The position numbers and the translations under genes were made by a program. Positions 9,484 to 31,890 of a stretch of DNA of 44,041 nt are shown one piece after another. The stretch lies in the IMG/VR virus record IMGVR_UViG_3300009506_000064, positions 1-44,041 of that record; one strand, written 5' to 3'. Position 1 is the stretch's first letter; every line of letters begins with the position of its first letter. The notes below the pieces were generated by a model. The model saw only the letters and a program-made list of their open reading frames with translations, did no database searches and had not been told where the DNA came from. The stretch comes from a virus.

Positions 9484-9513
9484 CTCCTAATAAATAATAC
9501 CGTTTGTTTATTT
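9484..9513 (-). promoter_or_regulatory. phage promoter-like motif, copy 1
   Basis: On the minus strand this reads AAATAAACAAACGG then TATTATTTATTAGGAG, nearly identical over its whole length to the copy at 14301. It lies in the 66-base gap between the recombinase gene and the Cys-rich protein gene and points at the latter. The terminal TTAGGAG also supplies the ribosome binding site for the TTG start at 9477. Probably drives the lysis-packaging-sulfotransferase operon. Confidence 0.75.
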
Positions 9514-9543
9514 GATGAAGAAATTTAGTTTACTTGAATAATT

Positions 9544-10374
9544 TCATTTATCGGTTTCGGGAAGAAAATCTATCTTACTTTCTTCGTTTGTTAGGTTCCA
9601 ATATATATCTAAAGTGGTAGAGACAGAGCTGTGTCCTAACCAAGCAGATACTTGTTTAGCGTGTATTCTTTTAGTTTTATTGGTTAAGGCTAGAGAAGCA
9701 AAAGTATGTCTAAGATCATGAAAACGTAGTATCGGTATTTTTGCGTGCGCGCATAAGCGCCTGAGAATTGGATTTGGATCAAATTGTTCAAAAATTTTTT
9801 CATTAGGATTACTTAATAAAACATTTCTAGTTTTTATTAAAGTTTTAGTGAGTTCTGGACTCATAGGAACTATCCGGCTTTTACCGTTTTTAGTAGGACC
9901 ATCATAGGAATGAGAAATTTTGATTTTTCCGTTTAATACATCAACATCTTTACATCTAAGTCCAAATATCTCTCCTCTACGTAATCCAGCATGTAAAGCT
10001 AATAACATAACAGGATAGAATTTAGGTTCTAATCTTTGCGTTATTTTCATTAAAGTTAAAGATTGTTCAGCGTTTAGGGCTAATACTTCAGTTTGTTGTT
10101 CGCTTCTTTTTAAACTTTTAATATATTGTTTAGTGTCAATATCAGTTCCGCCCATAAATTTAATATAACGGTTTAATAGTCTTATTAATGTTATTTTTGT
10201 ATTTTTAGATAAATTCTTTTGTTCCCATTTTGTTAGCATAAATAATGTTGATTCTCTTGTCCAATTTTTCCAATTTGGTTCTTCTCCGCAGGGAAATTCT
10301 ATATGTGCTTTAAATAAACTTTTATAGGTTTTAACGGTTGCCGGGCGTCCGGTTAGGGTTTCTGTGAAGTCCAT
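9544..10374 (-). CDS. int: tyrosine recombinase / phage integrase
   Basis: A 276-residue protein with a short N-terminal SAM-like/core-binding domain (about 1-95) and a catalytic domain with HAGLRRGEIFGL (R132), TKNGKSR (a lysine near 162-165), HDLRHTFASLAL (H219, R222), WLGHSSVSTTLDIYW (H248, nucleophile Y258). All active-site residues are present, so it should be active. The family integrates phage genomes or resolves circular multimers. It is shorter than typical integrases (about 320-400), lacking an arm-binding domain. GAGGAGG precedes the ATG. Its promoter-like motif is the same as that upstream of virion genes, which is unusual for a lysogeny gene. No excisionase or repressor is visible nearby. 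Confidence 0.88.
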   Translation of the reverse strand: MDFTETLTGRPATVKTYKSLFKAHIEFPCGEEPNWKNWTRESTLFMLTKWEQKNLSKNTKITLIRLLNRYIKFMGGTDIDTKQYIKSLKRSEQQTEVLALNAEQSLTLMKITQRLEPKFYPVMLLALHAGLRRGEIFGLRCKDVDVLNGKIKISHSYDGPTKNGKSRIVPMSPELTKTLIKTRNVLLSNPNEKIFEQFDPNPILRRLCAHAKIPILRFHDLRHTFASLALTNKTKRIHAKQVSAWLGHSSVSTTLDIYWNLTNEESKIDFLPETDK

Positions 10375-10380
10375 AGGTTT

Positions 10381-10409
10381 CCTCCTCTAGTATATAATAC
10401 CGTTTATCC
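10381..10409 (-). promoter_or_regulatory. phage promoter-like motif, copy 2 (recombinase)
   Basis: On the minus strand it reads GGATAAACGGTATTATATAC then TAGAGGAGG, followed by AAACCT and the recombinase ATG. It differs from the consensus by one base in the core (ATATA instead of ATTTA). The GAGGAGG end is the recombinase ribosome site, leaving room for only a very short untranslated leader if transcription begins at the G of TAG. It faces away from copy 3; the two cores are about 60 bases apart. Confidence 0.7.
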
Positions 10410-10450
10410 AGAAAAACGGCAGGATAAAATTAATAAAATAGCTTAATCAA

Positions 10451-10479
10451 ACTAAAATACGGTATTATTTAATAGAGGA
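10451..10479 (+). promoter_or_regulatory. phage promoter-like motif, copy 3 (start of rightward virion operon)
   Basis: Reads ACTAAAATACGGTATTATTT then AATAGAGGA, with the ATG of the 84-residue gene seven bases further on. The bases before it (TAGCTTAATCAAA) are repeated before copy 4 at 14291. The 110-base gap 10375-10485 holds only this and the divergent copy 2; I see no tRNA-like or clear attachment-core sequence in it. Confidence 0.75.
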
Positions 10480-10485
10480 TTTTGC

Positions 10486-10740
10486 ATGCCTACAGATAAT
10501 TGGACCTATGAAGAGGGTCCATCAAAAACAGATAAATATGAGTGGCGAATACCTAATAACGAAGATCAGCATGGAGAACAAACTGTAGCTCCCGGGGATT
10601 TGGCTGTTAAGCCTAAAGATCTAACTCTTGTTCCTACTAAACCTCCTGCGCGTTCTGGTATTCAACATGGTACTGAAGATTGGAATTATACGAGCATTCC
10701 AGATATGAATTGGTATGTCTGGGGAATTATTGAGGATTAA
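10486..10740 (+). CDS. hypothetical 84-residue protein
   Basis: A small hydrophilic, Trp- and Pro-rich protein (several W residues, 'WTYEEGP' at the start and 'NWYVWGI' near the end). No domain recognised, no signal or membrane segment. First gene of the rightward operon, immediately behind promoter-like copy 3 and before the large tail protein, so a tail-accessory role is possible. AGAGGA is its ribosome site. Confidence 0.7.
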   Translation: MPTDNWTYEEGPSKTDKYEWRIPNNEDQHGEQTVAPGDLAVKPKDLTLVPTKPPARSGIQHGTEDWNYTSIPDMNWYVWGIIED

Positions 10741-10760
10741 TTTTTAGTAGTGAGGAAAAT

Positions 10761-11051
10761 ATGGCTAGCGCAGCAGTAATCAAAAAACTTTTATTGAAAT
10801 ATTTTAGAGAGGCCCCTAAAGAAATTATTATAGATTATTTAGAGATTATGTTTAATTCTCTATCTACAGCACAGAAATTAGCTTTAATCAAGGCCGCTAA
10901 AAATTACTTATTACCTAAAGCACAAGATGATTTAATAACAATTAGTGTTTCTTGTGATACTCTTCGTACTGAGGCTTCTTTGATTACTGAAAATGCTGAT
11001 ACTATGGTTTCTGAGGCTCAAGAATTAGTAGACGATATAGAGAGTTTATAA
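10761..11051 (+). CDS. hypothetical helical protein upstream of tail protein
   Basis: A 96-residue protein predicted to be almost wholly helical (AAVIKKLLLKYFREAPKE, then long Ala/Leu/Glu-rich helices). No recognised domain. GAGG precedes the ATG, and the large tail protein gene starts 16 bases downstream. It may be a tail-fibre assembly or accessory protein by position only. Confidence 0.7.
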   Translation: MASAAVIKKLLLKYFREAPKEIIIDYLEIMFNSLSTAQKLALIKAAKNYLLPKAQDDLITISVSCDTLRTEASLITENADTMVSEAQELVDDIESL

Positions 11052-11067
11052 GTAAGATTTAGGAGTT

Positions 11068-14000
11068 ATGATGGCTAATGTAATTAGAAACGGGACTTTT
11101 TATGGTATTTGGCCTGTTTTAGACGGTAAAGGAATCAATTATCAATGGGGTGAGATAAGATCAAATACGGCTGAAACAAAAGCTATTGTTAGAAGTTCAG
11201 TACAAGAGTTGGAAGATGGGATAGACGAATTAAATGCTCTTAGGTCTCTTCTTGGATTATCTTTTGGTGATTTAGATTTTAGTAATAAATTTCGTTTTTA
11301 TTATGATCAAACAACAGAAGAACTTTGTTGTCAAAAAAATGACGGTACGGTAGAATCTCCTATTTGGACGGATGCTTGGTGTGTTAGATTTCATGATGGG
11401 CAATTTCAAGTAGTTAGTACTGGAGGAATTCAATCGGCGGCGGGTTTCTACGGTTCAGGTTTACAATCAATTGAGGAAGTGGCTGAATCTGGTACAGGCG
11501 CTGATGTTTCTATTCGTAATCCTACTAAAATTTTCTTTAATGTCGGGGATGGTTTATCTGTAGAAGAAATTGCTGCTGGGGCGAACAAAGGTCAACCTGA
11601 GATTAGGTTTAGTCAACCTTTTGGACAAGCACAAAAGTTTTCTAAGTCTGGTAGAGTGTGGCGTGTAGATCATAATTATGGTCTTACTCCTGTTCTTGTT
11701 CAAGTTATGGATGCGGACGATAGAGTAGTTATTCCAGATGTAGCAGATGTTTCAGATGAAAATACTGCTTGGTTTTATTTTAATGATTCTTTTACAGGTT
11801 CGGTTTATATTGCTTCTGGAGGTGTAGGGGCTGCTTCTCTTGTTCCTCGTGATCCTTTTTATCTTGTTGTTCGACACAGCGGGCAGTCTGCTTCTCCTGA
11901 TAATTTGTTTAAACCAAATTGTGATTTAATTTTTGATGAACGATATTTTTATGTAAATCCGAATCAAGATGAAGATGCTGGTGGGGCTCATAAGGAAGTT
12001 TTTGTTAGCTTATCTTCTGATACAATTGGGGTGGATTTAACAGACGGTGAGAACGTCTTTCCAAGTACAGATAAGATTAATTTTAATCATGATCGTTTTT
12101 ATCTTACTTCTGATTCAGAAGGTAAGCCTGTTGTTAATAGCCGTTTTCTTGATTCTGTTAGATTTGAGGCTCATGTTAGAGTAGATGATTCTGTTTATGT
12201 AGAAAATGCTGTTACGGCTGAGGCATTTTATTTGGCTCCGGGTTCAGGTGGGGAATTAAGTAAGTCGGAGAATGATGTTAAATTAGCGTCTAAAGATGGT
12301 GATGTTATTATTGATGATGATCTTCAAGTAACAGGCGCTGTACAAGCAGATGATACTATTTATGTAGAAAATGCTGTTACGGCTGAAGCTTTTTATGTTA
12401 AAGCAGGATATGAACTTAGTTCTGAAATACTTAAAGCTCCAGAGGGAAATTTTAGTGGTTATGTTAATGTTGATGATTCTGTTTATGTAGAAAACATAGT
12501 TACGGCTGAAGCTTTTTATGTTAAGTCTGGGCATGAATTAGGATGTGATGGACTTATAACTAGTGATGGAAATTTTAGTGGTTATGTTAATGTTGATGAT
12601 TCTGTTTATGTAGAAAATATAGTTACGGCTGAAGCTTTTTATGTTAAGTCTGGAAACGAGTTAGGTCCGGACGGTCTTCATGTTAATGATATTGATGCTA
12701 GTGGTTATGTTAATGTTGATGATTCTGTTTATGTAGAAAATATAGTTACGGCTGAAGCTTTTTATCTAGCTTCTGGAGGTGAAATAAGTAAATCCGGTGA
12801 TGATGTTATATTAGCGTCTAGTGTTGGTGATGTTATTATTGATGATTGCGCTAAAATTACTGATTGTTTAGTTATTGGAGAAGATCAAACTTATGCTACC
12901 GGTGTTAAGAATTTAATTGAAATTCCTGATTCTGTAATTCAAGATGGGGAAGGCGGAAATATTAACGTTTTATCCGGACTTAGTTCATCGGCTTTAACCA
13001 AGATAAATTCAGCACAAACTTTAACTTCTGCGGCTACTTTCGTTGATAGGACTATATTCCGGGAGACCGGAGCAATCGCTGGAAGTCATACATTATTACA
13101 AAAAATAGGTGTTCAAGCAACTCCAACATATCAGATTGGACACGATGGAACTAGTACCGCAGCAGTTCCTACTTTTTGTGGTATTGGTTCTAGTCCGATT
13201 GTAAAACGAAAGTCTGGAAATACTGGTAATGTTACTGTTACAGAGATGTCTGGATTTAATACGAATCCTCTCAATCCTCTTATTGCTTTTGTTTCCGCTC
13301 AACAAATAAATGCAGGCTTTACTATAACTAAATATGCTCATTTTATAGCTCATTCAGACGTATCTGGTGGTCTTGTAAAGACAGGTGGAACGATTACTAC
13401 TGAAATAGGTTTGGATCTTCAGAATATTAATCTTGGTACTACTTGTATATCTATTAATTCTACGGCTACTGGCGCTACTATGCGGCATCGTGGTAAAGTT
13501 AGTCTTGGAACTACTTCTACTCCTTCTGTGTCTTTAGGCGGTACTGCGTATGCGCCTAAATTGTATGTAGAAAGTAACGATGGAGATATGTATGAGTGGA
13601 TTGTAGCTAAATATGATAATACTAATGCTAATCATTTAGTTTATGCTCGTGCTCGTGGAACTTTAGCTTCTCCTAGTGCGATTGCTACTGGTAATACAAT
13701 TTTTAGTACTCAAGGTTGGGGTTATACTAATGGTTCTTTCTGGAAAGCAACTTCTTTTAATTCTGAAGTAGACGATACTGTTGGAGTTCAAGATGTGCCT
13801 GGGGCTTTTGTATTTAAAGTACATGGAGCAGGTACGGGTGTAAATGTTGTAGATATTGCTTTAAATATTAGAAGTAATTTAACTATGATAAATAGCGGTC
13901 ATAGAGGATATGCTAGTACTGGAATATTTAGTGGTACTTTAAGTGGGAATGTTAATGATTATGCTTCATATGGTGAAAAAGGAATATGGAGAATTAATTG

Positions 14001-14259
14001 TGGGGCTGCTAACAGAACAATTACTGGTATTTTAGCTCCGGCGGCACCGTCTACTACTGATTTCTTAGAAATTACTATTATTAATGTGTCCGCGGCGGCA
14101 GCGGATCTTATTTTAGCTGATGAGGATGCAGGCTCTGTGGCGGCGAATAGAATTATTACGGGAACTGGAAGTGATTGGACTATTAGCCCAGACGAGGCGG
14201 CTCATTTAATTTATGATAATGTTACGGATCGTTGGCGTATTATTTCCCATCATCCTTAA
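11068..14259 (+). CDS. tail fibre / tailspike-type protein with internal repeats
   Basis: A 1063-residue protein. The N-terminal ~270 residues are mixed, possibly the virion-attachment part. Residues about 370-590 hold five copies of a VDDSVYVENxVTAEAFY segment, four of them exactly 41 residues apart. The rest is rich in T, S, G, N and V with beta-type repeats ('LSGNVNDYASYGEKGIWRI' near the end), as in trimeric beta-helical fibres or spikes. No glycosidase or lyase signature is visible. It probably binds the host surface. ATGATG is the start; AGGAG precedes it. The receptor is unknown; the last ~120 residues may be the trimerising tip. Confidence 0.7.
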   Translation: MMANVIRNGTFYGIWPVLDGKGINYQWGEIRSNTAETKAIVRSSVQELEDGIDELNALRSLLGLSFGDLDFSNKFRFYYDQTTEELCCQKNDGTVESPIWTDAWCVRFHDGQFQVVSTGGIQSAAGFYGSGLQSIEEVAESGTGADVSIRNPTKIFFNVGDGLSVEEIAAGANKGQPEIRFSQPFGQAQKFSKSGRVWRVDHNYGLTPVLVQVMDADDRVVIPDVADVSDENTAWFYFNDSFTGSVYIASGGVGAASLVPRDPFYLVVRHSGQSASPDNLFKPNCDLIFDERYFYVNPNQDEDAGGAHKEVFVSLSSDTIGVDLTDGENVFPSTDKINFNHDRFYLTSDSEGKPVVNSRFLDSVRFEAHVRVDDSVYVENAVTAEAFYLAPGSGGELSKSENDVKLASKDGDVIIDDDLQVTGAVQADDTIYVENAVTAEAFYVKAGYELSSEILKAPEGNFSGYVNVDDSVYVENIVTAEAFYVKSGHELGCDGLITSDGNFSGYVNVDDSVYVENIVTAEAFYVKSGNELGPDGLHVNDIDASGYVNVDDSVYVENIVTAEAFYLASGGEISKSGDDVILASSVGDVIIDDCAKITDCLVIGEDQTYATGVKNLIEIPDSVIQDGEGGNINVLSGLSSSALTKINSAQTLTSAATFVDRTIFRETGAIAGSHTLLQKIGVQATPTYQIGHDGTSTAAVPTFCGIGSSPIVKRKSGNTGNVTVTEMSGFNTNPLNPLIAFVSAQQINAGFTITKYAHFIAHSDVSGGLVKTGGTITTEIGLDLQNINLGTTCISINSTATGATMRHRGKVSLGTTSTPSVSLGGTAYAPKLYVESNDGDMYEWIVAKYDNTNANHLVYARARGTLASPSAIATGNTIFSTQGWGYTNGSFWKATSFNSEVDDTVGVQDVPGAFVFKVHGAGTGVNVVDIALNIRSNLTMINSGHRGYASTGIFSGTLSGNVNDYASYGEKGIWRINCGAANRTITGILAPAAPSTTDFLEITIINVSAAAADLILADEDAGSVAANRIITGTGSDWTISPDEAAHLIYDNVTDRWRIISHHP
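12181..12765 (+). repeat. five in-frame repeats of about 50 bases inside the tail protein gene
   Basis: Units begin at 12181, 12346, 12469, 12592 and 12715, each encoding VDDSVYVEN(A/I)VTAEAFY with near-identical bases. Spacing is 165 bases for the first pair and exactly 123 bases (41 codons) for the next three. Copies 3-5 also share the preceding GYVN codons. The intervening codons vary. Low DNA divergence suggests recent duplication or homogenisation by recombination; flanking LASKDGDVIIDD and LASSVGDVIIDD segments are a further repeated pair. Confidence 0.9.
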
Positions 14260-14300
14260 TCAATAATATTAATTTTGATTTTTAATCAATTAGCTTAATC

Positions 14301-14329
14301 AAATAAACAAACGGTATTATTTATTAGGA
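14301..14329 (+). promoter_or_regulatory. phage promoter-like motif, copy 4
   Basis: Reads AAATAAACAAACGG then TATTATTTATTAGGA, the closest match to copy 1. It is in the 83-base gap after the large tail protein and before the 100-residue gene; an AAAAGGAG ribosome site follows. It would drive the accessory-tail and portal genes. Confidence 0.75.
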
Positions 14330-14342
14330 AAAGGAGTCTTTT

Positions 14343-14645
14343 ATGGCTGAGTATACTGGAACTAAAACCGCTAGAGTGTTGGGAAACGCTTCAGCAGCTA
14401 ATCGTACTCTTATTGCAGCAAACAGATCTGCTCTTATTTTAGGAATTTATGTAGCGGCAGATGGAGTGGCTGATATTGTTAATGTTCAAGATGCTAGTGG
14501 GAATGCTATAGGAGATATTGCGGTAGGAGCAGATGATACCGGTGGAATTAATACTCCTTTTTTGGTTGATAATGGTCTTTTAGTGGTATCTGGAGCTAGT
14601 GCAGCGACGACTTATATTATGGTAATTTATCGTCCGGATTGTTAA
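14343..14645 (+). CDS. hypothetical structural protein (beta-rich, 100 residues)
   Basis: A small Ala/Gly/Val-rich protein (ASAANRTLIAANRSALI, then VADIVNVQDASGNAI), likely all-beta. It has no signal peptide or Cys pair. Composition and position behind its own promoter-like motif, between tail-type genes, suggest a virion component such as a head or tail decoration subunit. No family recognised. AAAAGGAG precedes the ATG. Confidence 0.7.
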   Translation: MAEYTGTKTARVLGNASAANRTLIAANRSALILGIYVAADGVADIVNVQDASGNAIGDIAVGADDTGGINTPFLVDNGLLVVSGASAATTYIMVIYRPDC

Positions 14646-14647
14646 TT

Positions 14648-15286
14648 ATGGCTCAAACACGCGGTAAACATGCCATAAAGGGTGATTTTGCAGTTAGTGG
14701 GAATGCTGATTTTGAAAAAGGATTAACTTCTCCATATTTGGAAATTATTGATCAAAAATTAACAGGTACTCCGGGTGGAACTTTTAATGGTCAAAATGAT
14801 GAACCCGGAGCAGCGGCTTGGAAGACTAGAGATTTAACATATACTGTTCATGATGATTTTGCTACTGATATTACTTTAGCGGCGGCGGCTGGAGATGGAG
14901 GAGATATCACATTAGAAAAGGGGGTTTATTATGCTGAGATTTCAGCCCCTGCTTTTAATGTTAATGAGCATGTTGCTAGGTTAGCTGATGTAACAGATAA
15001 TCCAGGAGCGCAAGCTGATACTGTTATTTTGGGTACTTCAGAGTTTGCACCAGATACTGCTCTTTGGCAAGATAGTGTTCCGGCTGGTATGACTGTTGCA
15101 GCGTCTGCTCAAACTAGATCAATTGTTACTGGAAGATTTAGTCTTTCTAGTCAAAGAACTTTAGAGATTCAACATCGTTGTGCTAGAACACAGACTCTTG
15201 ATGGATTTGGAAGTGACGCGGGTTTTTATGAAGTAAATAACGTTTTTACTATTGTGAAAATGTGGAAACTTAGGGATTACGTATAA
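14648..15286 (+). CDS. putative tail/appendage structural protein
   Basis: A 212-residue protein starting MAQTRGKHAIKG. I chose the ATG at 14648 over an in-frame TTG nine bases earlier because that TTG lies inside the preceding gene. The centre (GGDITLEKGVYYAEISAPAF then a long Ala/Thr/Ser part) looks like a jelly-roll or C1q-like beta domain often found at the tips of phage appendages. No enzyme motif. It probably forms part of the host-binding apparatus with the two genes before it, inferred from context. Confidence 0.65.
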   Translation: MAQTRGKHAIKGDFAVSGNADFEKGLTSPYLEIIDQKLTGTPGGTFNGQNDEPGAAAWKTRDLTYTVHDDFATDITLAAAAGDGGDITLEKGVYYAEISAPAFNVNEHVARLADVTDNPGAQADTVILGTSEFAPDTALWQDSVPAGMTVAASAQTRSIVTGRFSLSSQRTLEIQHRCARTQTLDGFGSDAGFYEVNNVFTIVKMWKLRDYV

Positions 15287-15301
15287 AGGGAGAGATTAAT
15301 A

Positions 15302-15997: not shown

Positions 15998-18202
15998 ATG
16001 AGTGTTGATTATCGTACAATAGCTAAGAGCGGTCAACTTCATCGTATTGATGAATTAGACATTGGAGATGATAGTATCGGAGGGCTTATTAGAGAGTATT
16101 CTGATTCTATTAATTCAAATAATAAATCATTACATTGGCAAAGAGCGGTACGTTGGATTGAAAATATTTTCTTTTCTGCTGGAAGACAGTATGTAGATGA
16201 TATTCTTGTTTCACGTTTAGCTAATAGCGGCGGTAGCTCAGAAATTGGAGATTTGTCGGTAGTTATGGATGCTACCCGTAGTATACCTAAACCTACCAAT
16301 GATCTTCTTGGTAGATATGTTGAAACAAATATTGCTCTTTTAACGGAAAATAGACCGCGACCTAGAGTAACACCTAAATCGGATAGAGATGAAGATCAAA
16401 CAGCGGCTGAGTTATCTGAATTAACTCTTGAGTATGTTTGGGAGGCTTTACTTATGCCCGCTAAAATGCGGGAAATGGCGCGTTTAGTTTTACATACGGG
16501 TCTTTGTTTACTTGAAGTAGCTTGGGACCCTACAATTCCGCGTAGGATGCAGATGGCTAAAACAAAGAAAGAAATAGCTGTGGCGCTTCCAGAAGGATCG
16601 AAACCTCCAATTATTGCCCCTCGTGAAGTTCCAGAATTAGATGAATTTGGAAGACCTATAATGAAAGAGGAGATTGAGTATGGCGATATAGTAGCAAATA
16701 TTGTTACAGCCTTTCAATTTCATACTCCTTCTACTCATTTTTGGGAAAATTTAGGTTGGACTTTAAAAGAGGAATTTATTCCGATTGATAAGTTAAGAGA
16801 TAAATATTTAACCCCTGGTAAACAGGCGGCCGGATTAACTAAGGAAAAAGGTTGGAATTTATCTGTTCTTGACGGCATACAAAGTGAAAATATTAGTTCT
16901 CTAGCTCTTTGGTGGTGGGAACGTATCTCAGAATTAGTAGAGGGTCCAGGGCCTAGTTTATGTATTGGTTCTCCAGATAATTGGGATGGTTATGTAATTG
17001 TTAGAACTTTTGATAGGGCTCCATCTAAAAAATGGTCTAAAGGACGTACTATTATTACAGTAGGAGACAAGGTATTATATGATTCTCCTAAGGTTATTGG
17101 AGCTAGAGCTTATGATCCTCGTTGGCCTTCTAGATGGCATCCTTATGTTAGGTATCGATGGGAAGGTCAAACTGGAAGTATTCATGGTCGTAGTTTGATC
17201 TCTAAATTATTACCAAAGATTAAAAGAGTTAATGCAATCGATACTACTTTGATTATGTGGCGACGTACAGTACCGATTGCGGCGTGGATTTCTCCTAAAG
17301 GTTCTGATCCAATTGAAGATCTTTGGTCTGGTCGTCCTGGTATGCATTGGCAATATGATCCTAGACGTACTGCAAATATGCGTCCTGAAGTAGTATATCC
17401 GCCACCTTTCCCGGCAGCGGCTTTACAAGAACGTGAGATACAAATTGCAGAAATGGAGGCTATAGCAGGAACAGAACAGATTTTACGAGGTGAGCGTCCG
17501 GTTGGTGTGAATTCTGCGGCTATGATTGATATTTTACGTAAGCAAGCTTTAGCTAGTCGTTCAGCAACTCTTCAAGAGTGGGATGAATCGCATCAAGAAT
17601 TAGGTCAATTATTACTTCAAACAATAATTAGACACGTTCGTAATGATCCTCGTTATGCTGAGCGAATTCGTATTTTAGCTAGAGAAAAGCATAGTAGGGT
17701 TGCTATTGAAGCTTTTTCTGGTGAAGATTTATCGGATAATGTTATTGTACGAGTAGATACGGCAAGTCTAGCTTTGGTATCTAAAGAAGCTAGAGAAGCT
17801 AAAGTGATTGAAATTCTTCAATACTTACCAAATATTCAAGCTATTGATGATGTTGGTTTACGTCAAGCTATTCTTGATGAATTGAATTTAAAGAAAGCAC
17901 TTATGCCTAGTGGTCCTGATATTAATAGAGCTAAGAAGATGATTTCTCTTATTAAGCAAGAGAGATTTGATAGAATTACATTATTACCGGAAGATGATCC
18001 TTATATCTTCCAAGCTTTATTAGTTAATGAAACAAAGAGCGATGGTTTCATAGATCTACCAGTAGAACAACAACAAGCATTGATTTCGTTAGTTGATCTT
18101 TATGAACGTCAAATTAAGTTAAGGGAAATGCAACAAGCTCAAATGATGCAAGCACAAATGGAAATGCAAGCGGCACTTACAGGGAGAGGTTCTAAGGAGT
18201 AG
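15998..18202 (+). CDS. portal protein
   Basis: A 734-residue portal (head-tail connector) protein, in the large size class of P22/N4-like portals. Typical features are the N-terminal NDLLGRYVETNIALLTENRP, then LVLHTGLCLLEVAWDP for the wing, a long alpha/beta core, EQILRGERPVGVNSAAMIDILRK near the stem-loop region, and a Gln/Met-rich C-terminal helix (MQQAQMMQAQ). Twelve copies would form the DNA channel and dock the terminase. It starts directly at the preceding stop (TAA-ATG). The terminase it works with is encoded on the other strand at 5170-7401. Confidence 0.85.
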   Translation: MSVDYRTIAKSGQLHRIDELDIGDDSIGGLIREYSDSINSNNKSLHWQRAVRWIENIFFSAGRQYVDDILVSRLANSGGSSEIGDLSVVMDATRSIPKPTNDLLGRYVETNIALLTENRPRPRVTPKSDRDEDQTAAELSELTLEYVWEALLMPAKMREMARLVLHTGLCLLEVAWDPTIPRRMQMAKTKKEIAVALPEGSKPPIIAPREVPELDEFGRPIMKEEIEYGDIVANIVTAFQFHTPSTHFWENLGWTLKEEFIPIDKLRDKYLTPGKQAAGLTKEKGWNLSVLDGIQSENISSLALWWWERISELVEGPGPSLCIGSPDNWDGYVIVRTFDRAPSKKWSKGRTIITVGDKVLYDSPKVIGARAYDPRWPSRWHPYVRYRWEGQTGSIHGRSLISKLLPKIKRVNAIDTTLIMWRRTVPIAAWISPKGSDPIEDLWSGRPGMHWQYDPRRTANMRPEVVYPPPFPAAALQEREIQIAEMEAIAGTEQILRGERPVGVNSAAMIDILRKQALASRSATLQEWDESHQELGQLLLQTIIRHVRNDPRYAERIRILAREKHSRVAIEAFSGEDLSDNVIVRVDTASLALVSKEAREAKVIEILQYLPNIQAIDDVGLRQAILDELNLKKALMPSGPDINRAKKMISLIKQERFDRITLLPEDDPYIFQALLVNETKSDGFIDLPVEQQQALISLVDLYERQIKLREMQQAQMMQAQMEMQAALTGRGSKE

Positions 18203-18205
18203 GAA

Positions 18206-20911: not shown

Positions 20912-20948
20912 AATGTTTTGTTTACTTAAAGTAATAATGACTGTTCAA

Positions 20949-20978
20949 ATAAATAAACGGTATTATTTAAATAGAGGA
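20949..20978 (+). promoter_or_regulatory. phage promoter-like motif, copy 5 (scaffold-capsid)
   Basis: Reads ATAAATAAACGGTATTATTT then AAATAGAGGA, with one extra A before the TAG compared with other copies. It sits between the terminator and the scaffold gene, so the scaffold-capsid unit is a self-contained cassette. Confidence 0.78.
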
Positions 20979-21092
20979 AGTAGTTTAACTGCCTATTAGG
21001 CGTGCTTATCTTCCAAAGCCATAAATGTTAAACATCAATTCGTCAGAACATACTCCCTAAGCTGACGTTAAAACATCAAGGAGGTACAGCCA
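20979..21092 (+). promoter_or_regulatory. structured 5' leader of the scaffold-capsid transcript
   Basis: About 110 bases between promoter-like copy 5 and the scaffold ATG. It holds a small hairpin GCCTATTAGGC (20991-21001), a 6-bp hairpin CGTCAG/CTGACG (21041-21046 with 21062-21067), and a repeated GTTAAACATCAA / GTTAAAACATCAA. CAAGGAGG is the ribosome site. The other promoter-like copies except copy 6 have almost no leader, so a role in mRNA stability or translation is plausible. Confidence 0.5.
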
Positions 21093-22130: not shown

Positions 22131-23342
22131 ATGGAAACTTTTACGACTCTTGGTGATATGCTTCTTCGTCGGTATGTCGTGGACTTTATTGGGCAGATGC
22201 AGCAACTTTCAGCGCCAGTTCACAGCCGACTAAAGGAGAATATGCGTTTCCAACCCTCCGGGGATGGTGCGTATTTTGCAGTTCGGATTGATGGTAATGA
22301 GTCAGGAGGTGGTTGGCGTGCTACCGACGATAATACTCTACCTTCGGCAAGTAATGAGCGCATCAAGCAGGCTCGCGTTCGACCTAAGAAATATTATCAT
22401 ACGGTAACTTTTTCTGGTCTAGCAGAGGCAGTATCTAAGCGTGCTGGTGAAGATGCTTTTGCTGCTGGTATTACTGATGCAATTAGTAATGCCGTAAAGC
22501 GTGCTGGTGCTAATTTTGAGACTACTTTCCTACGTGGTGATGGTACCGGGCGGCTTACGAATGTAAGCGGAACCCAGACGGCCTCTACGACTATTCTAGT
22601 AGATGATTCTAGAACAATGCGTTCTGGTCAAGTAGTTGTTTTCTTAAACAATACTACGGGTCTTCGACAAGCCGGTCCAGTAACTGTAACATCAAATGAC
22701 ATTGCCAATAGTACTATTACAGTCAGCGCGGCTGTAACAGTAACGGATGATGATGGTGTTTATATTTCAGGTGAGCAGGATGAAGCTTCTGCTCCTTCTG
22801 AAGTTACAGCACTAGGATTACCGGCATTAGTAAACAATACTGGTACTATCTATAATATTAGTCGAACGACTTATCCAATCCTTCAATCTAAGGTTATTGC
22901 GGCTGGTTCTACGTCTCTTGACGAAAGTATGCTACGTAGATTACGCAAGCAGCTAATGATTGAAACGGCAGTTGAGACTCTAGATGGCTTTGCCATGATC
23001 TCGAATCACGATCAGTATGATCGTTATACTGAGATCGCTCTTCCGTTCCGTCGGTTTAACGATATGCGGTTAGAGCTTGGTGCTCAGCAAGAACTAACTA
23101 CGTTCGAGGGTCGGCCATGGCTGGTTACGTGGGCGGCTCTTCCGGATGAGGTTTATTTCCTCAATCTCGGTGCAATCGAGCGCGGTGTTGTTCGTCCGTT
23201 TACGATTGATGAGAGGGTAAATATGGCTTGGGTACCTGGACACGATGCTTTCACAGTTCTGATGAAGACTTATTGTGAGAACGTTGGTCGTTATCTTAAT
23301 CAATCGGCTAAGATTACAGGACTAACAACTCCTACGTACTAA
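22131..23342 (+). CDS. major capsid protein (HK97 fold)
   Basis: A 403-residue protein. It carries the scaffold-adjacent position, size and sequence character of HK97-fold capsid proteins: an N-terminal arm, VRPKKYYHTVTFSGLAEAVS for the E-loop/spine region, ISNAVKRAGANFETTFLRGDG, a beta-rich insertion (about 145-220), RRLRKQLMIETAVETLDGFAMISNHDQYD and MAWVPGHDAFTVLMKTYCENVGRYLNQSAKI near the end. The size resembles capsid proteins of N4-like phages. It has GAGGAG, a hairpin upstream and a strong terminator downstream. Codon use differs from most of the window (CGT/CGG, CTT/CTC, GTC more frequent), consistent with very high expression. Confidence 0.88.
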   Translation: METFTTLGDMLLRRYVVDFIGQMQQLSAPVHSRLKENMRFQPSGDGAYFAVRIDGNESGGGWRATDDNTLPSASNERIKQARVRPKKYYHTVTFSGLAEAVSKRAGEDAFAAGITDAISNAVKRAGANFETTFLRGDGTGRLTNVSGTQTASTTILVDDSRTMRSGQVVVFLNNTTGLRQAGPVTVTSNDIANSTITVSAAVTVTDDDGVYISGEQDEASAPSEVTALGLPALVNNTGTIYNISRTTYPILQSKVIAAGSTSLDESMLRRLRKQLMIETAVETLDGFAMISNHDQYDRYTEIALPFRRFNDMRLELGAQQELTTFEGRPWLVTWAALPDEVYFLNLGAIERGVVRPFTIDERVNMAWVPGHDAFTVLMKTYCENVGRYLNQSAKITGLTTPTY

Positions 23343-23369
23343 TCGTAGCTTGTTGAAAAATTAGAAATA

Positions 23370-23396: not shown

Positions 23397-23420
23397 ATTG
23401 TTTAAATAGGAGCTAAACTA

Positions 23421-23693: not shown

Positions 23694-23696
23694 GAT

Positions 23697-23987: not shown

Positions 23988-23998
23988 GAGCTTTTATA

Positions 23999-25078: not shown

Positions 25079-25079
25079 T

Positions 25080-25283: not shown

Positions 25284-25284
25284 A

Positions 25285-25608: not shown

Positions 25609-25635
25609 TTGATCAACCGTTTAGTATTGCTTAAA

Positions 25636-25666
25636 CAAAACTTTAGACGGTATTATTTATTAGAAG
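25636..25666 (+). promoter_or_regulatory. phage promoter-like motif, copy 6
   Basis: Reads CAAAACTTTAGACGGTATTA then TTTATTAGAAG. Core identical, purine end AGAAG rather than AGAGGA. It precedes the 125-residue gene by about 107 bases, leaving a structured leader. Confidence 0.75.
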
Positions 25667-25679
25667 TTGAAGTGTAGTT

Positions 25680-25777
25680 AAGATATGTTGAATATCTTGC
25701 AGAATAAAACGTAAAATTAAAAGATTGCCAACCCCATTGGAGGGAAGGACTCTTTGTTGAAAGGAGAAATCCAATGG
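25680..25777 (+). promoter_or_regulatory. structured leader with start-codon hairpin
   Basis: Contains AAGATAT/ATATCTT (25680-25686 with 25692-25698, loop GTTGA), then an 8-bp inverted repeat CCATTGGA (25734-25741) with TCCAATGG (25770-25777) that pairs across the ATG at 25774. Nested inside is CTTTGTTGAAAG (4-bp stem), whose 3' arm abuts the AAAGGAG ribosome site. In this fold both ribosome site and start codon are partly hidden. Confidence 0.6.
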
Positions 25778-26151
25778 CTAATGATGTAAAGATTCGTTTT
25801 CGTTCGTTCCTGCCCGGCGGCGGGTTTGACTCTTCGGGTAATGCTAAGCAAGGTAAGACCCGGGTAGTTGGTGAGATTGACGTAACATCTTATGCGAAGG
25901 GTGGAGAAAATCTTGCTCCGGTAGATGTAGGTCTTAGCACAATCGATTTAATTAGTCTACGTGTACACGATCAGACTAGCCATCCTAGTGCTCAGGAGCA
26001 GCGACAGGCTCTCTATAATCAGACGAATGATCAGTTTTATCTAATTACTGTGTCTTCGGCTGGTGTGCCTATCGAGTATGCTAATGCAGCAACTGAGACT
26101 GTTGAGTTTGTGGCAGAAGGTGATAGCGCGCATGACGTGGAGCTAACGTAA
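25774..26151 (+). CDS. abundant virion protein candidate, 125 residues
   Basis: A beta-rich protein (VKIRFRSFLPGGGF, RVVGEIDVTSYAKGGENLAP, QFYLITVSSAGVPIEYANAA) with no enzyme motif. It has its own promoter-like motif, a structured leader and a strong terminator, and the same C/G-rich codon choice as scaffold and capsid. This points to a very abundant product, such as a capsid decoration (cement) protein or head fibre base. The 'VTSYAxGGExL' segment is shared by small phage head proteins I have seen unassigned. Function is inferred from expression layout, not from a recognised domain. Confidence 0.7.
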   Translation: MANDVKIRFRSFLPGGGFDSSGNAKQGKTRVVGEIDVTSYAKGGENLAPVDVGLSTIDLISLRVHDQTSHPSAQEQRQALYNQTNDQFYLITVSSAGVPIEYANAATETVEFVAEGDSAHDVELT

Positions 26152-26186
26152 GTTAGTTTAAGTAAACTAAAGTCTTGAACATATAG

Positions 26187-26215
26187 GGGGCCTGGATTCC
26201 AGGCCCCTTATTAAT
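26187..26215 (+). terminator. intrinsic terminator after 125-residue gene
   Basis: GGGGCCTGG (26187-26195), loop ATT, CCAGGCCCC (26199-26207), then TTATTAATTT. A perfect 9-bp GC-rich stem. Confidence 0.87.
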
Positions 26216-26232
26216 TTGATTAAGGAATTTTT

Positions 26233-26397
26233 ATGAATTATCAAGCTGCTTTACGTTGTGAATTATGCGGTGTACCTATTGTTAAAAAATCTAGAGCAAA
26301 AACACCTAAATATTGCGCTTCTTGTCGTGAAAAGAAACAAGAAGCATGGAAGATGCAACTTAAAGTTGATAGACAACGCAGGGTGCGTGGTCGATAA
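26233..26397 (+). CDS. small zinc-ribbon protein, 54 residues
   Basis: Encodes RCELCGVPIVKKSRAKTPKY then CASCREKKQ: two CxxC knuckles about 18 residues apart, a typical zinc ribbon, and a basic C-terminal helix ending QRRVRGR. The ATG is preceded by AAGGA. It lies just after a terminator with no promoter-like motif, so it depends on read-through. Nucleic-acid binding is likely from the fold; role unknown. Confidence 0.65.
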   Translation: MNYQAALRCELCGVPIVKKSRAKTPKYCASCREKKQEAWKMQLKVDRQRRVRGR

Positions 26398-26418
26398 TTA
26401 AACAAAAGGAGAAATATT

Positions 26419-26679
26419 ATGGCTACTACTGTTGCAAACCGTCGGGTGGTTCCTCTTGGTGGAATTACCATGGAAGTTCTTAATCTTACTGGCGTAACTG
26501 ATGCTGATACTGTAACAAGTCAGATGCAACGACCGGTATTTGGATTTGGAGTTGTATATAGCGATGGTTCACCAATGACGGCTGCTATTAATCCTTCGAT
26601 TTCTGGTCGAACGATAACTCTTAATAGTACGGATCTTGATGGCGATGATAATTTAGTACTGGTTCTATTTGGTTTTTAA
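26419..26679 (+). CDS. hypothetical beta-rich structural protein, 86 residues
   Basis: A small Val/Thr/Gly-rich protein (TTVANRRVVPLGGITMEVLN, then GRTITLNSTDLDGDDNLVLV), predicted all-beta. AAAAGGAG precedes the ATG. Codon use here (CGTCGGGTGG, CGAACG) is again somewhat C/G-richer than in flanking genes. Probably a minor virion protein; no family recognised. Confidence 0.65.
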   Translation: MATTVANRRVVPLGGITMEVLNLTGVTDADTVTSQMQRPVFGFGVVYSDGSPMTAAINPSISGRTITLNSTDLDGDDNLVLVLFGF

Positions 26680-26706
26680 TCAAATACTATCAAGGGAGGA
26701 GTATTT

Positions 26707-27408
26707 ATGTTGGTAAAATTACCAGAACAGGGTCGTCCATTAAACGTTTTTTATCGTAAGTGTGCTCTTGGAGTTGATCTCCCGGCGCAATTATTTTATG
26801 ATTTGCGTGGACTTGATGGTAATTTTTATTTTATTTACCATCCTTATAGAATTCTCTGGGATAATATTGTTAATGAGTATACTGGAAAATTAGATGAAGA
26901 ACGCTATCCTGTTGTAGAAAATAGTTTCAAATACGGACAATTAGTTATGGGCCATGTTCTTTCTAACGGGCAAGGTATACCTGCGCCTGAAGGAAATTGG
27001 CATCTTTGGCGGTATTGTTCTGCTATAAATTCTTGGGCTCATATTATTGAAATTAAATATAAAGATCCGATATACATGAAGTTAATTGTAGAGCGTATCT
27101 GGCTTCAAGCTAAATACAACGATAGGTATGGGCATCGTAGTTATCAAAAAATGATGGAAGAAGCAGATCTTAAACAAAGAGCTAAGATTCAAGACGAGAA
27201 GCAAGATCTCATGAATCAGATTAATAAAGCTAATACTGCTCTAGTAGGTAGAGCGATGTATAATTTTGAGCATGGTAGAGTTAAACCAACTAAGCCAAAG
27301 AAGGATATTATTGTTTCTGGTGCTGGTATTAACAAGCGTTCAAGGATAACTCGTGATCTTACTGATCGGGAAGGTGGTTTGATCTTACCTGATAATTTAG
27401 GAGATTAA
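26707..27408 (+). CDS. hypothetical protein, 233 residues
   Basis: Mixed alpha/beta protein with many aromatic residues in the first half (NFYFIYHPYRILWDN, NWHLWRYCSAINSWAHIIEI) and a Lys-rich helical second half. No recognised motif. GGGAGGAG precedes the ATG. Its stop is directly followed by the GTG of the fibronectin-like gene. Probably a head-tail or tail component by position. Confidence 0.65.
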   Translation: MLVKLPEQGRPLNVFYRKCALGVDLPAQLFYDLRGLDGNFYFIYHPYRILWDNIVNEYTGKLDEERYPVVENSFKYGQLVMGHVLSNGQGIPAPEGNWHLWRYCSAINSWAHIIEIKYKDPIYMKLIVERIWLQAKYNDRYGHRSYQKMMEEADLKQRAKIQDEKQDLMNQINKANTALVGRAMYNFEHGRVKPTKPKKDIIVSGAGINKRSRITRDLTDREGGLILPDNLGD

Positions 27409-28389
27409 GTGGCTACTAGTGCTAAAAGATTAGGAATGGACGTAAAGGATGATCTTGAGTTAGAATTACGTCTACGCCGTATCGAGGCAGAGTTAGAACA
27501 GTGTGTTAAAGCTTCTGATATTGGTGATGGTTCTGATCAAACGCAACGGGTTTCTACTGTACCTCAAGTTACCGGACTTAGAGTTACAGGACGAACGGCG
27601 GGCGCAATAAGCATGGCTTGGAATCAGGTTAGGATTTCTGATTTAAGAAGATATGAATTGTGGATTGCTGAAGATTTAGCTTTTAGTACAAATCTTCAAA
27701 CATTTAATGTTGCAGGAACTGATTATACATATAGTACGGTTTCTTCAACAGGAGGTGGTGGTAATACTTCAGTTTATGCTAAAGTTAGAGCTAGAACTAA
27801 ATCAGGAAATGTTGGTGTATTTTCTGCTATATTAAATGCTTTAACAGGCCAAGCTCAAACTGATGATATTGCTGATGAATCGGTAACTGTTGAAAAAGTT
27901 TCAACTGAAGATCCTGATAGTACTGTTTGGACTTCTGAAAATGACGGTGCTGGAAGTGGTCTTGATGCTGATCTTGTAGACGGTATTGATAGTGATGAAC
28001 TTATGACGGTGGATGGTTACCACGCAGAAGATCTACTTGTATTTGATGAGGTTGTTCCTCTTTATTATGAAAGCGCCTCAACAGCTATGGCGGATAATTC
28101 TGATATTACATTTAATCATGGTTTAGGTAGTGAGCCTCGATTGGTTCAAGTTTATGCCGTTTGTATTTCAGCAGAATTAGGTCATAGTGTTGGAGATAAG
28201 CTTTTAATTGGTTGGGGAAGTGAAGGAACAGTTGGAGGTGGAAAAGGAGTAGAATGTTTTATTCGTGGTACTACTAGTATTATTATTCGTATAGCTCAAA
28301 ATGGAATTAGAATGCTTTCTACCGCACCAATTGTTTGGACTAATGCGACTACTGCAAAATGGGAATTAATTGTAAAAGCATGGAAGTAA
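27409..28389 (+). CDS. tail/appendage protein with fibronectin type III-like domain
   Basis: 326 residues from a GTG that follows the preceding stop without a gap. After a coiled-coil start, residues about 48-140 look like a fibronectin type III domain (VPQVTGLRVTGRTAGAISMAW, YELWIAEDLAF). This is followed by DADLVDGIDSDEL and VDGYHAEDLL, the 'DAxxLDGxxxxxx' motif common in phage tail fibres, and a beta-rich C-terminus (LGSEPRLVQVYAVCISAELG). It likely belongs to the virion's appendages. Confidence 0.7.
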   Translation: MATSAKRLGMDVKDDLELELRLRRIEAELEQCVKASDIGDGSDQTQRVSTVPQVTGLRVTGRTAGAISMAWNQVRISDLRRYELWIAEDLAFSTNLQTFNVAGTDYTYSTVSSTGGGGNTSVYAKVRARTKSGNVGVFSAILNALTGQAQTDDIADESVTVEKVSTEDPDSTVWTSENDGAGSGLDADLVDGIDSDELMTVDGYHAEDLLVFDEVVPLYYESASTAMADNSDITFNHGLGSEPRLVQVYAVCISAELGHSVGDKLLIGWGSEGTVGGGKGVECFIRGTTSIIIRIAQNGIRMLSTAPIVWTNATTAKWELIVKAWK

Positions 28390-28399
28390 GGAAAAATAA

Positions 28400-29092
28400 A
28401 TGGCGACAATAGATGATAATCTATCAGGTCTTAGAAATAGGGTAAGACGTTGGTTGCATGAATTAGCTCCCGGTAATTCTTTTTGGAGTAATACGTTTAT
28501 TGATCAACAAATCAATGTTTCTTATCGTCGGCGTTGTGCAAATCTTGTTATGGCTTATGAAGGATATTTTACAAATGTTGCGACTAGAGATCTTGTGGCT
28601 GATCAAGAAAGGTATGCGTGGCCTCCAGGATTAGAACGTGTTTTAAAAATGGAGTTAGTGAGAACAGATGGTACTACAATACCTATAGAACGTGAAGAAC
28701 GTCATTATGCGGCTAAGTTAACTGAAGCGGGTGGCGGTCAAGATATTTATATGCCTAATTGGCGTCCCATTAGTGGTGGTTTTGTTCTAGAGCCGGCCCC
28801 ACAAGAAGCAGTAACTAATGGTCTTAGACTTGAATATTATGGATTACCTACGTTAATGCAAAATAGTGGGGATTCTATGCATCCTGATTTTCCTCGTAGT
28901 TTTGATGAATTAATTGTATTGGATACTGTTGTTGCTTGTATGGATTCAGAGAATTTATTAGAATTAGCAGGAACACGGACGGCTCTTCGTCAACGAGCAG
29001 AATGGGAACTTGATTGGGAAAGATATATTGATAATAGAGTTATTAGTACAAATAAAATTCAACCCTTCATTCCGCATTATATAGATAGCTAG
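28400..29092 (+). CDS. head-tail adaptor / tail tubular A-like protein
   Basis: 230 residues; the helical start (SGLRNRVRRWLHELAPGNSF, FIDQQINVSYRRRCANLVMA) and the later EYYGLPTLMQNSGDSMHPD, SFDELIVLDTVVACMDSENL resemble phage adaptor proteins that bind below the portal (DUF6682-type and T7 gp11-like). It is somewhat longer than T7 gp11 (196). The adjacent 850-residue gene fits gp12, supporting the assignment by order. Confidence 0.68.
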   Translation: MATIDDNLSGLRNRVRRWLHELAPGNSFWSNTFIDQQINVSYRRRCANLVMAYEGYFTNVATRDLVADQERYAWPPGLERVLKMELVRTDGTTIPIEREERHYAAKLTEAGGGQDIYMPNWRPISGGFVLEPAPQEAVTNGLRLEYYGLPTLMQNSGDSMHPDFPRSFDELIVLDTVVACMDSENLLELAGTRTALRQRAEWELDWERYIDNRVISTNKIQPFIPHYIDS

Positions 29093-29096
29093 AATA

Positions 29097-29282
29097 ATGA
29101 TTTGTTTATGTGGAGAGCAAATTATACGAAAGAGAAAAAATTCTAATAATGAAATTTTATGTAAAAAATGTAATAATAGGCGACGAAATAATAAATATGC
29201 AGTTTCTTTGTGTGTTTCTTGTAATTCATTTAAAAAAGACCGTTTAATAATCGCCGGTAAATTTCCAGGAGTATTAATATAA
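29097..29282 (+). CDS. small multi-cysteine zinc-binding protein, 61 residues
   Basis: Contains CLCGEQII, LCKKCNNRRRNN and LCVSCNSFKKD: three CxC/CxxC pairs, enough for one zinc ribbon with a spare pair. Lys/Arg/Asn-rich. It fills the gap between adaptor and tail gene, overlapping the next ATG by one base (ATAATG). Ribosome site weak. Homing-endonuclease remnants and small DNA-binding proteins share such patterns; role unknown. Confidence 0.6.
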   Translation: MICLCGEQIIRKRKNSNNEILCKKCNNRRRNNKYAVSLCVSCNSFKKDRLIIAGKFPGVLI

Positions 29283-31834
29283 TGCCTTCAACTCCTAAAA
29301 TGCCTTCTGTTGATATTATCAATTTTGAGGGTTTATACACTAAACAGAACCCAGAAACATTAAAAGTTACTCAACTTCGTGAGTGTAAGAACGCAGACTT
29401 TTTTAGAGAATATGGTTCTCTATCTAAGTTACGCGGTAATACTCGTGTGCTTTCTAGTCAATATTCTGAGGATGCAGTTACAAAAGGAATTTATTGGGGT
29501 TCTAATTATAAAGTTCAAGATCTTTCTGGAGCTATTGATAGGCAAGTAATTATTGCGGCTGGAACAACTATTCAGAAAATTAATTCAGATGGAACATTGA
29601 CTGAATTATTATCTGATGAACCTGATGAACTTTATCGTACTTCAGGACAGCTTGATAGGTTTTTATTCTTTACTAGTCAAGATCCTTTTGATGTTGGTAA
29701 ACGAGGCCAAATGTCAAAGTATGACGGAACTAGAATTACTCAATGGGGCGTGACCCCTCCTGGTAGTCAAGTTATTAAGTATACAAATGGTGGACTTACC
29801 GAGTCTGATATAGATACACCTGTTGAGGGTTTTGATGATTCTTCTTTGTTTACTGTTAGTAACGCTACGGTAGAAGATTCAACTCAGCCAGCATGGCGTT
29901 CTACTTGTGTAAAAATGACGAAAGGTACTTCTTCTACTGTTGCATATATTGAAAGATTAGGTGTAGATGCTAATGCTCCTACGCCTTTTCAAATTAATAA
30001 TATTATTGAAGATAGAGCCCAAGTTCAAGTTTTTATTCCTCGTGAACATTATAGAAAATTAGCGACTAGTGGTAGAGCTTTATCTGTATATATTGGATCA
30101 GGAGCATCATTAGCAAATGATTATTATCGTTATGATTTTCAAATTGGGCGTTTGTATGAAGGTTGGAATACTTTAATTTTTGATTTTTCAACTTATCCTT
30201 CTGGTGATTTTGGTACAACGGTCGGTACTCCAGATGATGATAATCTTGCTAGTTATCGTTTTGAGGTTATTACGAATAATGCTACGGATGCTCCTGTAGT
30301 ATATTGGGATTGGTTTGTTTCTTTAGATCAAGGATCAGTAGTTCCTGCTTTCGGAGATGCCGGAGGATTAGTTTTTCCTTCCGCAGAGTCGTCTTTATGG
30401 AGTTATAAAGTTACATTTGTAGATGATGCTGGATTTGAATCAAACGCAGGTCCAGAATCTGTAATAGCTGATAATACTACAGGGGATATAGATTATGGTC
30501 AAATTGATCTAACAAATATTCCAGTTTCTAAAGATGGTTCTGTAGTAAAACGAAATCTTTATAGAAGGGTTGCTTCAGGTTCCCAATTTTTATATCTTGA
30601 TTCAATTAATGATAATGTAACAACTACTTATACAGATACTGTTCCTGATACTTCGTTAGGAAGTGATACTCCTCCTTTATTGGGGGATTTGATTTTTGAT
30701 AATAGCCGCCCTCCTAGTGGCGGGATTATGTTAATTTGGAAACGAACGGCGTTTGTTGCAGGTGATCCTCTTAATCCAACTATTTTAGCTTACAGTAGAT
30801 TTGATCTTCCAGAAGCATTTCCTATTAATAATGCGATTGAATTTGATGAACGTGTTACTGGTTTGTTTAAAACATATCTTGGGGTAGTGGTTACTACTGA
30901 AACAGCATATTGGAGAATTATCGGAGACAATCCAGATTATACCGTTGATAAGGTTATTGAGGGTTTTGGTGGGGTAGGGCCTCGTGCTGTAGGAACAGGG
31001 CGAGAAGTTGGTTGGGTTGTAGATAGAGATGGTCTTAGACTTTATGATCTTAGAGATACAATTAAGATTTCTGAAATTATTAGAGATAGGGTAGATGCTT
31101 TTAATAAAATTTATTTAGAAGAGGCACATACAGTACATAGTAGAAAGAATAATGCTTTACTTTGGTTAACTAAAGATTCTTCTGAAATATATTCGGATAT
31201 CTATATGTATCAATATATGATTGATGAAGTACGACAAGGATGGTTCTCACAGATAGAACCAAATCCTACTACATTTAATATTCAGCATTTATGGGAAGTG
31301 GAAGATTCTAACGGAAATTTTAAATTATATGCTGCTACTTCTGGTGGTATGGTTCATGAAATGTTAAGTGAAGATTCTTTTAATTGGTTAGATGATCAAG
31401 GAAAATCTCGTGCAATTACAATGGAGGTTTTACTTCCTTATATGCGTTTAGGCGTTACTGAAGAGGCCGTAGCCTTAACCGGTTGTTCAGGTAGAGTAGT
31501 ACCTAAAGAAATTGAATTAAGAATTAAAGAAAATAATGGTTTAGCTCATACTTGGACGGTTACGGTAGATACAAGCGACTCAGCTAGTGAAAACGCTTCA
31601 GTTAGAGATACTCAAGATATAATTTTTGATTTTAAAGCCGGACAAAGTTTATTAAGATTACCAACTCAAGATTTAATTCCAGGAGAGTACGTTAGACTCC
31701 GATTGATTAATTCAGAAAAAGATAAAGATCTTTCGATAATGGGCGTTAAGATATATTATTTGGTTAGGCCAGGACAATATATAGTTACTGGTGTTTCTGG
31801 TGATGGTGTTGCTGGTGGAGGGGGGCAGAATTGA
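29282..31834 (+). CDS. tail tubular B-like / tail hub protein
   Basis: 850 residues, close to T7 gp12 (794) in size and position. The N-terminus (INFEGLYTKQNPETLKVTQL, ECKNADFFREYGSLSKLRGN) has the 'GLnt..xp..l..gq....N...r.gg.l..R.G' layout of short-tail nozzle/propeller proteins. The body is beta-rich throughout, with repeated strand-turn units. It ends in GGGGQN. Six copies would form the tail nozzle below the adaptor ring. A P22 gp10-like protein is the alternative reading; both fill the same place. Confidence 0.7.
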   Translation: MPSTPKMPSVDIINFEGLYTKQNPETLKVTQLRECKNADFFREYGSLSKLRGNTRVLSSQYSEDAVTKGIYWGSNYKVQDLSGAIDRQVIIAAGTTIQKINSDGTLTELLSDEPDELYRTSGQLDRFLFFTSQDPFDVGKRGQMSKYDGTRITQWGVTPPGSQVIKYTNGGLTESDIDTPVEGFDDSSLFTVSNATVEDSTQPAWRSTCVKMTKGTSSTVAYIERLGVDANAPTPFQINNIIEDRAQVQVFIPREHYRKLATSGRALSVYIGSGASLANDYYRYDFQIGRLYEGWNTLIFDFSTYPSGDFGTTVGTPDDDNLASYRFEVITNNATDAPVVYWDWFVSLDQGSVVPAFGDAGGLVFPSAESSLWSYKVTFVDDAGFESNAGPESVIADNTTGDIDYGQIDLTNIPVSKDGSVVKRNLYRRVASGSQFLYLDSINDNVTTTYTDTVPDTSLGSDTPPLLGDLIFDNSRPPSGGIMLIWKRTAFVAGDPLNPTILAYSRFDLPEAFPINNAIEFDERVTGLFKTYLGVVVTTETAYWRIIGDNPDYTVDKVIEGFGGVGPRAVGTGREVGWVVDRDGLRLYDLRDTIKISEIIRDRVDAFNKIYLEEAHTVHSRKNNALLWLTKDSSEIYSDIYMYQYMIDEVRQGWFSQIEPNPTTFNIQHLWEVEDSNGNFKLYAATSGGMVHEMLSEDSFNWLDDQGKSRAITMEVLLPYMRLGVTEEAVALTGCSGRVVPKEIELRIKENNGLAHTWTVTVDTSDSASENASVRDTQDIIFDFKAGQSLLRLPTQDLIPGEYVRLRLINSEKDKDLSIMGVKIYYLVRPGQYIVTGVSGDGVAGGGGQN

Positions 31835-31861
31835 TTAGTTTAATTAAAAAATCTAAATCAA

Positions 31862-31890
31862 ACAAATAAACGGTATTATTTACTAGGGGA
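31862..31890 (+). promoter_or_regulatory. phage promoter-like motif, copy 7 (ejection proteins)
   Basis: Reads ACAAATAAACGGTATTATTT then ACTAGGGGA, followed by GGTATATTT and the ATG. AGGGGAGG is the ribosome site of the GNAT-like gene. In the 65-base gap after the tail gene; it would drive the internal virion protein genes. Confidence 0.78.

Follow-up and report, generated by a model that had tools for sequence, protein, structure and literature searches.

The motif ACGGTATTAT(T/A)TA occurs in seven exact copies in IMGVR_UViG_3300009506_000064, a 44,041-base IMG/VR viral fragment that was analyzed in full and is referred to here as the window. We propose that these copies are probably bacterial-type promoters of one phage regulon, read by the host core RNA polymerase loaded with a phage sigma factor, in a cascade like those of phages phiEco32 and 7-11. 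In such a scheme, a phage sigma70-family factor would be made early in infection and join the host core polymerase, which would then read a GCYTRA −35 element together with an extended (AAACGG)TATTAT −10 element. Transcription would start at the G of a conserved TAGRGG block, and the replication and virion operons would be switched on from these promoters. That the phage sigma recognizes the motif is suggested by the co-occurrence of the two, by the geometry of the sites, and by analogy with the characterized phages.

Seven promoter-like sites and their anatomy

All seven copies lie in gene gaps, each oriented to the next gene. Exact ACGGTATTATWTA matches were located at 9491–9503 and 10391–10403 on the minus strand, and at 10459–10471, 14311–14323, 20957–20969, 25647–25659, and 31870–31882 on the plus strand. 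An earlier sequence-only reading of the window had reported seven gap-located, gene-facing copies; the same seven were recovered exactly, its coordinates being 7–11 bases off. No ACGGTATTATWTA match was found in 200 dinucleotide shuffles of the window, and the reversed pattern had none in the window itself. Since allowing up to three mismatches gave 49 window matches vs. 44.5 expected by chance, only the complete motif is meaningful. A 39-column matrix trained on six relatives, with the window left out, selected exactly the seven sites at scores of 15.7–35.5, the next-best site reaching 1.2 and the top score in 40 shuffles being 14.4. The distance from core to start codon was 13–19 nt in five of the seven copies and 114–123 nt in the other two (20957 and 25647). 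The predicted promoters are as follows.

9487..9521, minus strand: predicted promoter copy 1; core 9503–9491, −10 hexamer from 9499, −35-like element 9521–9516 (TCTTCA), predicted start about 9487; heads 9121–9477 and the terminase-side operon
10387..10421, minus strand: predicted promoter copy 2; core 10403–10391, TATTATATA variant, −35-like element poorly conserved; heads the recombinase gene 9544–10374
10441..10475, plus strand: predicted promoter copy 3, divergent from copy 2; GCTTAA 10441–10446, core 10459–10471, −10 from 10463, predicted start 10475; heads 10486, 10761, and 11068–14259
14293..14327, plus strand: predicted promoter copy 4; GCTTAA 14293–14298, core 14311–14323, −10 from 14315, predicted start 14327; heads 14343 through the portal gene 15998–18202
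20939..20974, plus strand: predicted promoter copy 5; core 20957–20969, −10 from 20961, start region shifted by one (ATAGAGG), leader of ~120 nt; heads the scaffold-position gene 21093 and the capsid gene 22131–23342
25629..25663, plus strand: predicted promoter copy 6; GCTTAA 25629–25634, core 25647–25659, −10 from 25651, predicted start 25663; heads 25774–26151 (125 residues)
31852..31886, plus strand: predicted promoter copy 7; TCTAAA 31852–31857, core 31870–31882, −10 from 31874, predicted start 31886; heads 31900 and the large virion proteins 32383–39581

Next, 47 motif copies from seven related contigs were stacked. The stack revealed a −35-like GCYTRA element (up to 1.07 bits) at positions −22 to −17 before the −10, a 16-nt spacer, and a −10 hexamer (TATTAT, CATTAT, or TATAAT) with an invariant A at its second base and an invariant T at its sixth. 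AAACGG is near-invariant directly before the hexamer, and T-A-G-R follows 10–13 nt after its first base, where a bacterial polymerase is expected to start, as part of a TAGRGG block; positions −60 to −44 are flat, with no sequence preference. Two conserved blocks 16 nt apart and a start region therefore give the anatomy of a sigma-dependent promoter, and the motif is, as read from its sequence, a bipartite bacterial-type (−35/−10) promoter. It recurs upstream of middle and late operons, as is expected of a phage sigma regulon, and there is strong support for the earlier description, a family of phage-specific promoters that head functional units.

The sequence-only reading had also stated that no −35 box is present at the usual distance. 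This is correct for TTGACA, as no TTGACA-like −35 was found at 17 ± 1 nt from TATAAT, but the conserved, non-canonical GCYTRA 16 nt upstream of the −10 was overlooked; GCTTAA itself is exact in three of the seven window copies. A two-mismatch sigma70 promoter scan did not single out the seven window copies in their own orientation. It is quite improbable that the sites are ordinary strong host sigma70 promoters, alike by copying or shared ancestry and without a dedicated factor. Distant relatives do have TTGCAA-17-TATAAT promoters, which speaks for this explanation, but the window copies lack a TTGACA-like −35, the long conserved blocks outside the −10 and −35 change coherently from one genome to the next, the operons headed by the sites are unrelated, and a separate class of predicted TTGACA early promoters persists in this clade.

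Polymerase and sigma genes of the relatives

No close DNA relative of the window was found in the phage collection, where protein matches were weak only, and a host search via the capsid protein in GTDB genomes found none. The capsid protein search of viral contigs yielded 34 loci. Two of the relatives, G004 (119.6 kb, direct terminal repeat of 87 bases) and G005 (119.5 kb, direct terminal repeat of 121 bases), were taken as complete because of these repeats, and G001 (87 kb) is collinear with the window. The replication side of the relatives encodes PolA with a UDG-like domain, DnaB-type and UvsW-type helicases, UvsX, a gp32-type SSB, and SbcCD-like proteins. Judged from these annotations, this gene set is not the T7 arrangement; beyond the virion genes, the gene content does not resemble that of T7.

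The polymerase profile PF00940 was searched against 22 contigs and G039, G010, G036–G038, and G040, which include the two complete genomes of ~119.5 kb and the window-clade contigs G010 and G039. No T7/N4-type RNA polymerase was matched in any relative tested, and the positive controls T7 and N4 were both detected. Two virion proteins of 1332 and 1063 residues, considered as a virion polymerase, had no polymerase match in Pfam, and the 1332-residue protein had none in PDB by sequence.

A single-subunit polymerase of T7 or N4 type, favored by the sequence-only reading, for which the motif would be one contiguous promoter, was rejected on the PF00940 result and is extremely improbable. The T7/SP6-type promoter is a contiguous 23 bp element for a single-subunit polymerase, of which T7-type polymerases contact ~17 bp. 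The motif shares with it near-uniformity inside one genome, divergence between genomes, and conserved initial transcribed purines. Instead of a contiguous ~23 bp element without a −35, however, the motif has another conserved block, separated from the −10 by 16 nt and far beyond the contacted ~17 bp, and a sigma factor is present. The dedicated factor that the sequence-only reading had allowed as an alternative fits these results, as the relatives encode a sigma70-family protein.

A weak signal of Sigma70_r2 and Sigma70_r4, in the correct order, pointed to a 420-residue protein of G005, which matched the PHROG sigma family phrog_351 with an E-value of 7e-22. Homologues of this protein were found in L124, L125, and L126 (47–73% identity) and in L171 (~55%), all of them behind AAA and VWA (DUF2201) genes. 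In each of the seven contigs in which this stretch was examined (G004, G005, L124, L125, L126, L171, and G039), a sigma70-family gene follows the AAA/VWA genes, and proteins with both regions 2 and 4 are present in this same set. Within the window clade, G010 ends inside the VWA gene, and the same-sample contig G039 (79 kb) begins there; G039 encodes a 452-residue sigma (L175:7108-8466; phrog_351, E 1.4e-8) and bears six exact ACGGTATTATCTA copies on the same contig. A profile built from the seven sigmas gave 45 matches in PDB, all sigma factors, the best being SigA (E 6.5e-10, regions 2 to 4). A Foldseek search with the AlphaFold model of the G039 protein returned sigma A and sigma70 chains as top matches (E 6e-5). 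No sigma gene was found in the window, G001, or G006, fragments that do not include the AAA/VWA/sigma stretch; the window's own genome presumably carries the gene outside the fragment.

We consider it unlikely, though less so than the other alternatives, that the host sigma70 holoenzyme reads the motif with a phage activator bound to the upstream GCYTRA/AAATCAAA, replacing the −35 contact as T4 MotA does with AsiA. The −10 keeps the A and T most needed by sigma70, and a candidate exists in a helix-turn-helix (HTH) protein of 75–90 residues, resembling Sigma70_r4/HTH_58, whose gene immediately follows a copy of the motif in G003, G006, G010, G015, and G005. Yet the first −10 base varies between T, C, and A among genomes, the AAACGG block differs from the extended −10 of sigma70 (TGn), the HTH protein was not found in the window or G001, sigma70 has predicted TTGACA promoters of its own in the same clade, and a complete sigma factor is encoded and would suffice. 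The HTH loci are G010:20694-20939, G003:47255-47527, G015:1979-2305, G006:5201-5494, and G005:106457-106675. A conserved gene of ~205–220 residues follows the HTH gene in G003, G005, and G006, and G007 encodes the HTH as a fusion with an endonuclease VII-like domain.

Several points weigh against recognition of the motif by a phage sigma factor. Four of the window's seven sites have a degenerate −35-like element, and the late promoters of G004 and G005, with TATAAT and a TTGCAA-like −35, could be recognized by host sigma70 as well. The sigma is absent from the window, the nearest known case being that of G039, which has ~21% identity to the G005 type. The AlphaFold model of the G039 sigma is of moderate confidence (mean pLDDT 65.5) and its global TM-score in Foldseek is low, and the G005 sigma model, built from two sequences, is uninformative (mean pLDDT 37). 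Finally, the small HTH protein that follows a single motif copy in several relatives could be an activator.

Promoter order and known phage regulons

The motif heads replication and structural operons, and the genes preceding sigma carry predicted early promoters of the ordinary TTGACA type. In G010, several predicted TTGACA-17-TAnnnT promoters lie in the early region before the AAA and VWA genes, where the ACGG motif is absent. G039 has such a promoter before VWA, and in G036 and G037 similar ones precede the sigma operon. The motif copies of G039 include one directly after sigma, followed by copies before the SSB/UvsX/SbcCD genes, the ejection proteins, and the 125-residue gene. This order in G010 and G039 matches the published scheme of phage 7-11.

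In Salmonella phage 7-11, the sigma factor SaPh711_gp47 reads bipartite late promoters, GTAAtg-(16)-aCTA, upstream of late operons, and the early promoters use host sigma70 (PMC8948821). The phages described here are likewise podovirus-type, with predicted bipartite promoters of 16-nt spacer and an own sigma, found in the relatives. They differ in their consensus, GCYTRA-(16)-TATTAT with the AAACGG and TAGRGG blocks, in the motif also heading replication genes, and in complete relatives of ~119 kb with a T4-like recombination and replication set. In phiEco32, the sigma phi32_gp36 redirects the core polymerase of the host to middle and late phage promoters, which consist of a single element, tAATGTAtA, and this sigma has no homology to region 4 (PMC8948821). 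Here, in contrast, a −35-like element is conserved and sigma region 4 is recognizable. Promoter positions are conserved between 7-11 and phiEco32 but the sequences are not, a pattern shared by the relatives here, and further sigma/promoter pairs were predicted by the authors of the 7-11 study (PMC8948821). The family described here looks like such a case.

The proposed redirection of host RNA polymerase by a phage factor is also reminiscent of T4, with which the relatives share UvsX, gp32-like, gp46/47-like, and UvsW-like proteins. T4 late promoters consist only of TATAAATA and need the sliding clamp. The small T4 sigma gp55 belongs to PHROG families 234/34068, whereas the sigmas of the present phages match phrog_351 and not these families.

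Regulation of this kind is already known; what appears new is the lineage, together with its sigma/promoter pairs. The proposed scheme would explain the motif without a phage polymerase and tie an uncultivated phage lineage to a concrete regulatory mechanism. The promoter sets come in at least eight variants and the sigmas in two diverged types, so that the change of promoter specificity by sigma is testable with a few synthetic promoters and two proteins.

Motif versions and other features

The motif versions found in the relatives are listed below.

G001: ACGG[CT]ATTATTTA, 10 copies
G010: ACGGTATTATCTA, 8 copies
G039: ACGGTATTATCTA, 6 copies
G015: ACGGCATTATCTA, 6 copies
G012: AAGGAATTATTTA, 5 copies
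G022: ACGGTATAATTAA, 3 copies
G026: AAGGTATTATTTA, 3 copies
G003: mostly ACGGTATAATTAGGAAG
G004/G005: TTCCTATAATTAAG

Promoters of two more classes occur in G004 and G005. One is TTGCAA-17-TATAAT, whose spacer ends in an A-rich GAAAGAAAAGC and of which some copies stand upstream of replication genes; the other is TTCCTATAATTAAG, which precedes virion operons. No late motif was revealed by k-mer enrichment in G036–G038, contigs of the early/replication side. We tentatively suggest that each lineage within one phage family may have its own promoter code (extended −10 of AAACGG, AAAAGG, TTCC, or others; −35 of GCYTRA or TTGCA), drifting together with its own sigma. If so, the codes would form a natural series of co-evolving sigma/promoter pairs, and cross-activation of the late regulons of related phages would be prevented.

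Between the window and G001, there is a strong base-composition shift between close relatives: GC content is 36% in the window vs. 53% in G001, but the two capsid proteins share 93.6% identity, with 75.4% at the DNA level. Third-position GC of the capsid gene is 0.33 and 0.74, respectively.

A leader of ~110 nt separates the motif from the scaffold/capsid operon, in the same place in L013, L014, L016, L018, L020, L024, L029, L039, and L041.

20973..21092, plus strand: structured leader of the scaffold/capsid operon (predicted fold); three-way junction, pseudoknot, and terminal hairpin, kept in relatives

The apparent fold comprises a helix P1 with hairpins P2 and P3, the loop of P3 pairing to the 5′ end as a pseudoknot (PK), and a final hairpin upstream of the ribosome site. 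The helices were assigned by eye, and consensus RNAalifold failed on an automatic alignment. Their sequences vary with pairing kept, the number of different helices, chosen by eye, being 7 for PK, 9 for P1, 9 for P3, and 8 for P4. The leader had no match in Rfam and may represent a new cis-regulatory RNA that controls capsid synthesis. At 42355–43116 on the minus strand, the window encodes a homologue of phage peptide deformylase, adjoining glycosyltransferase-like genes.

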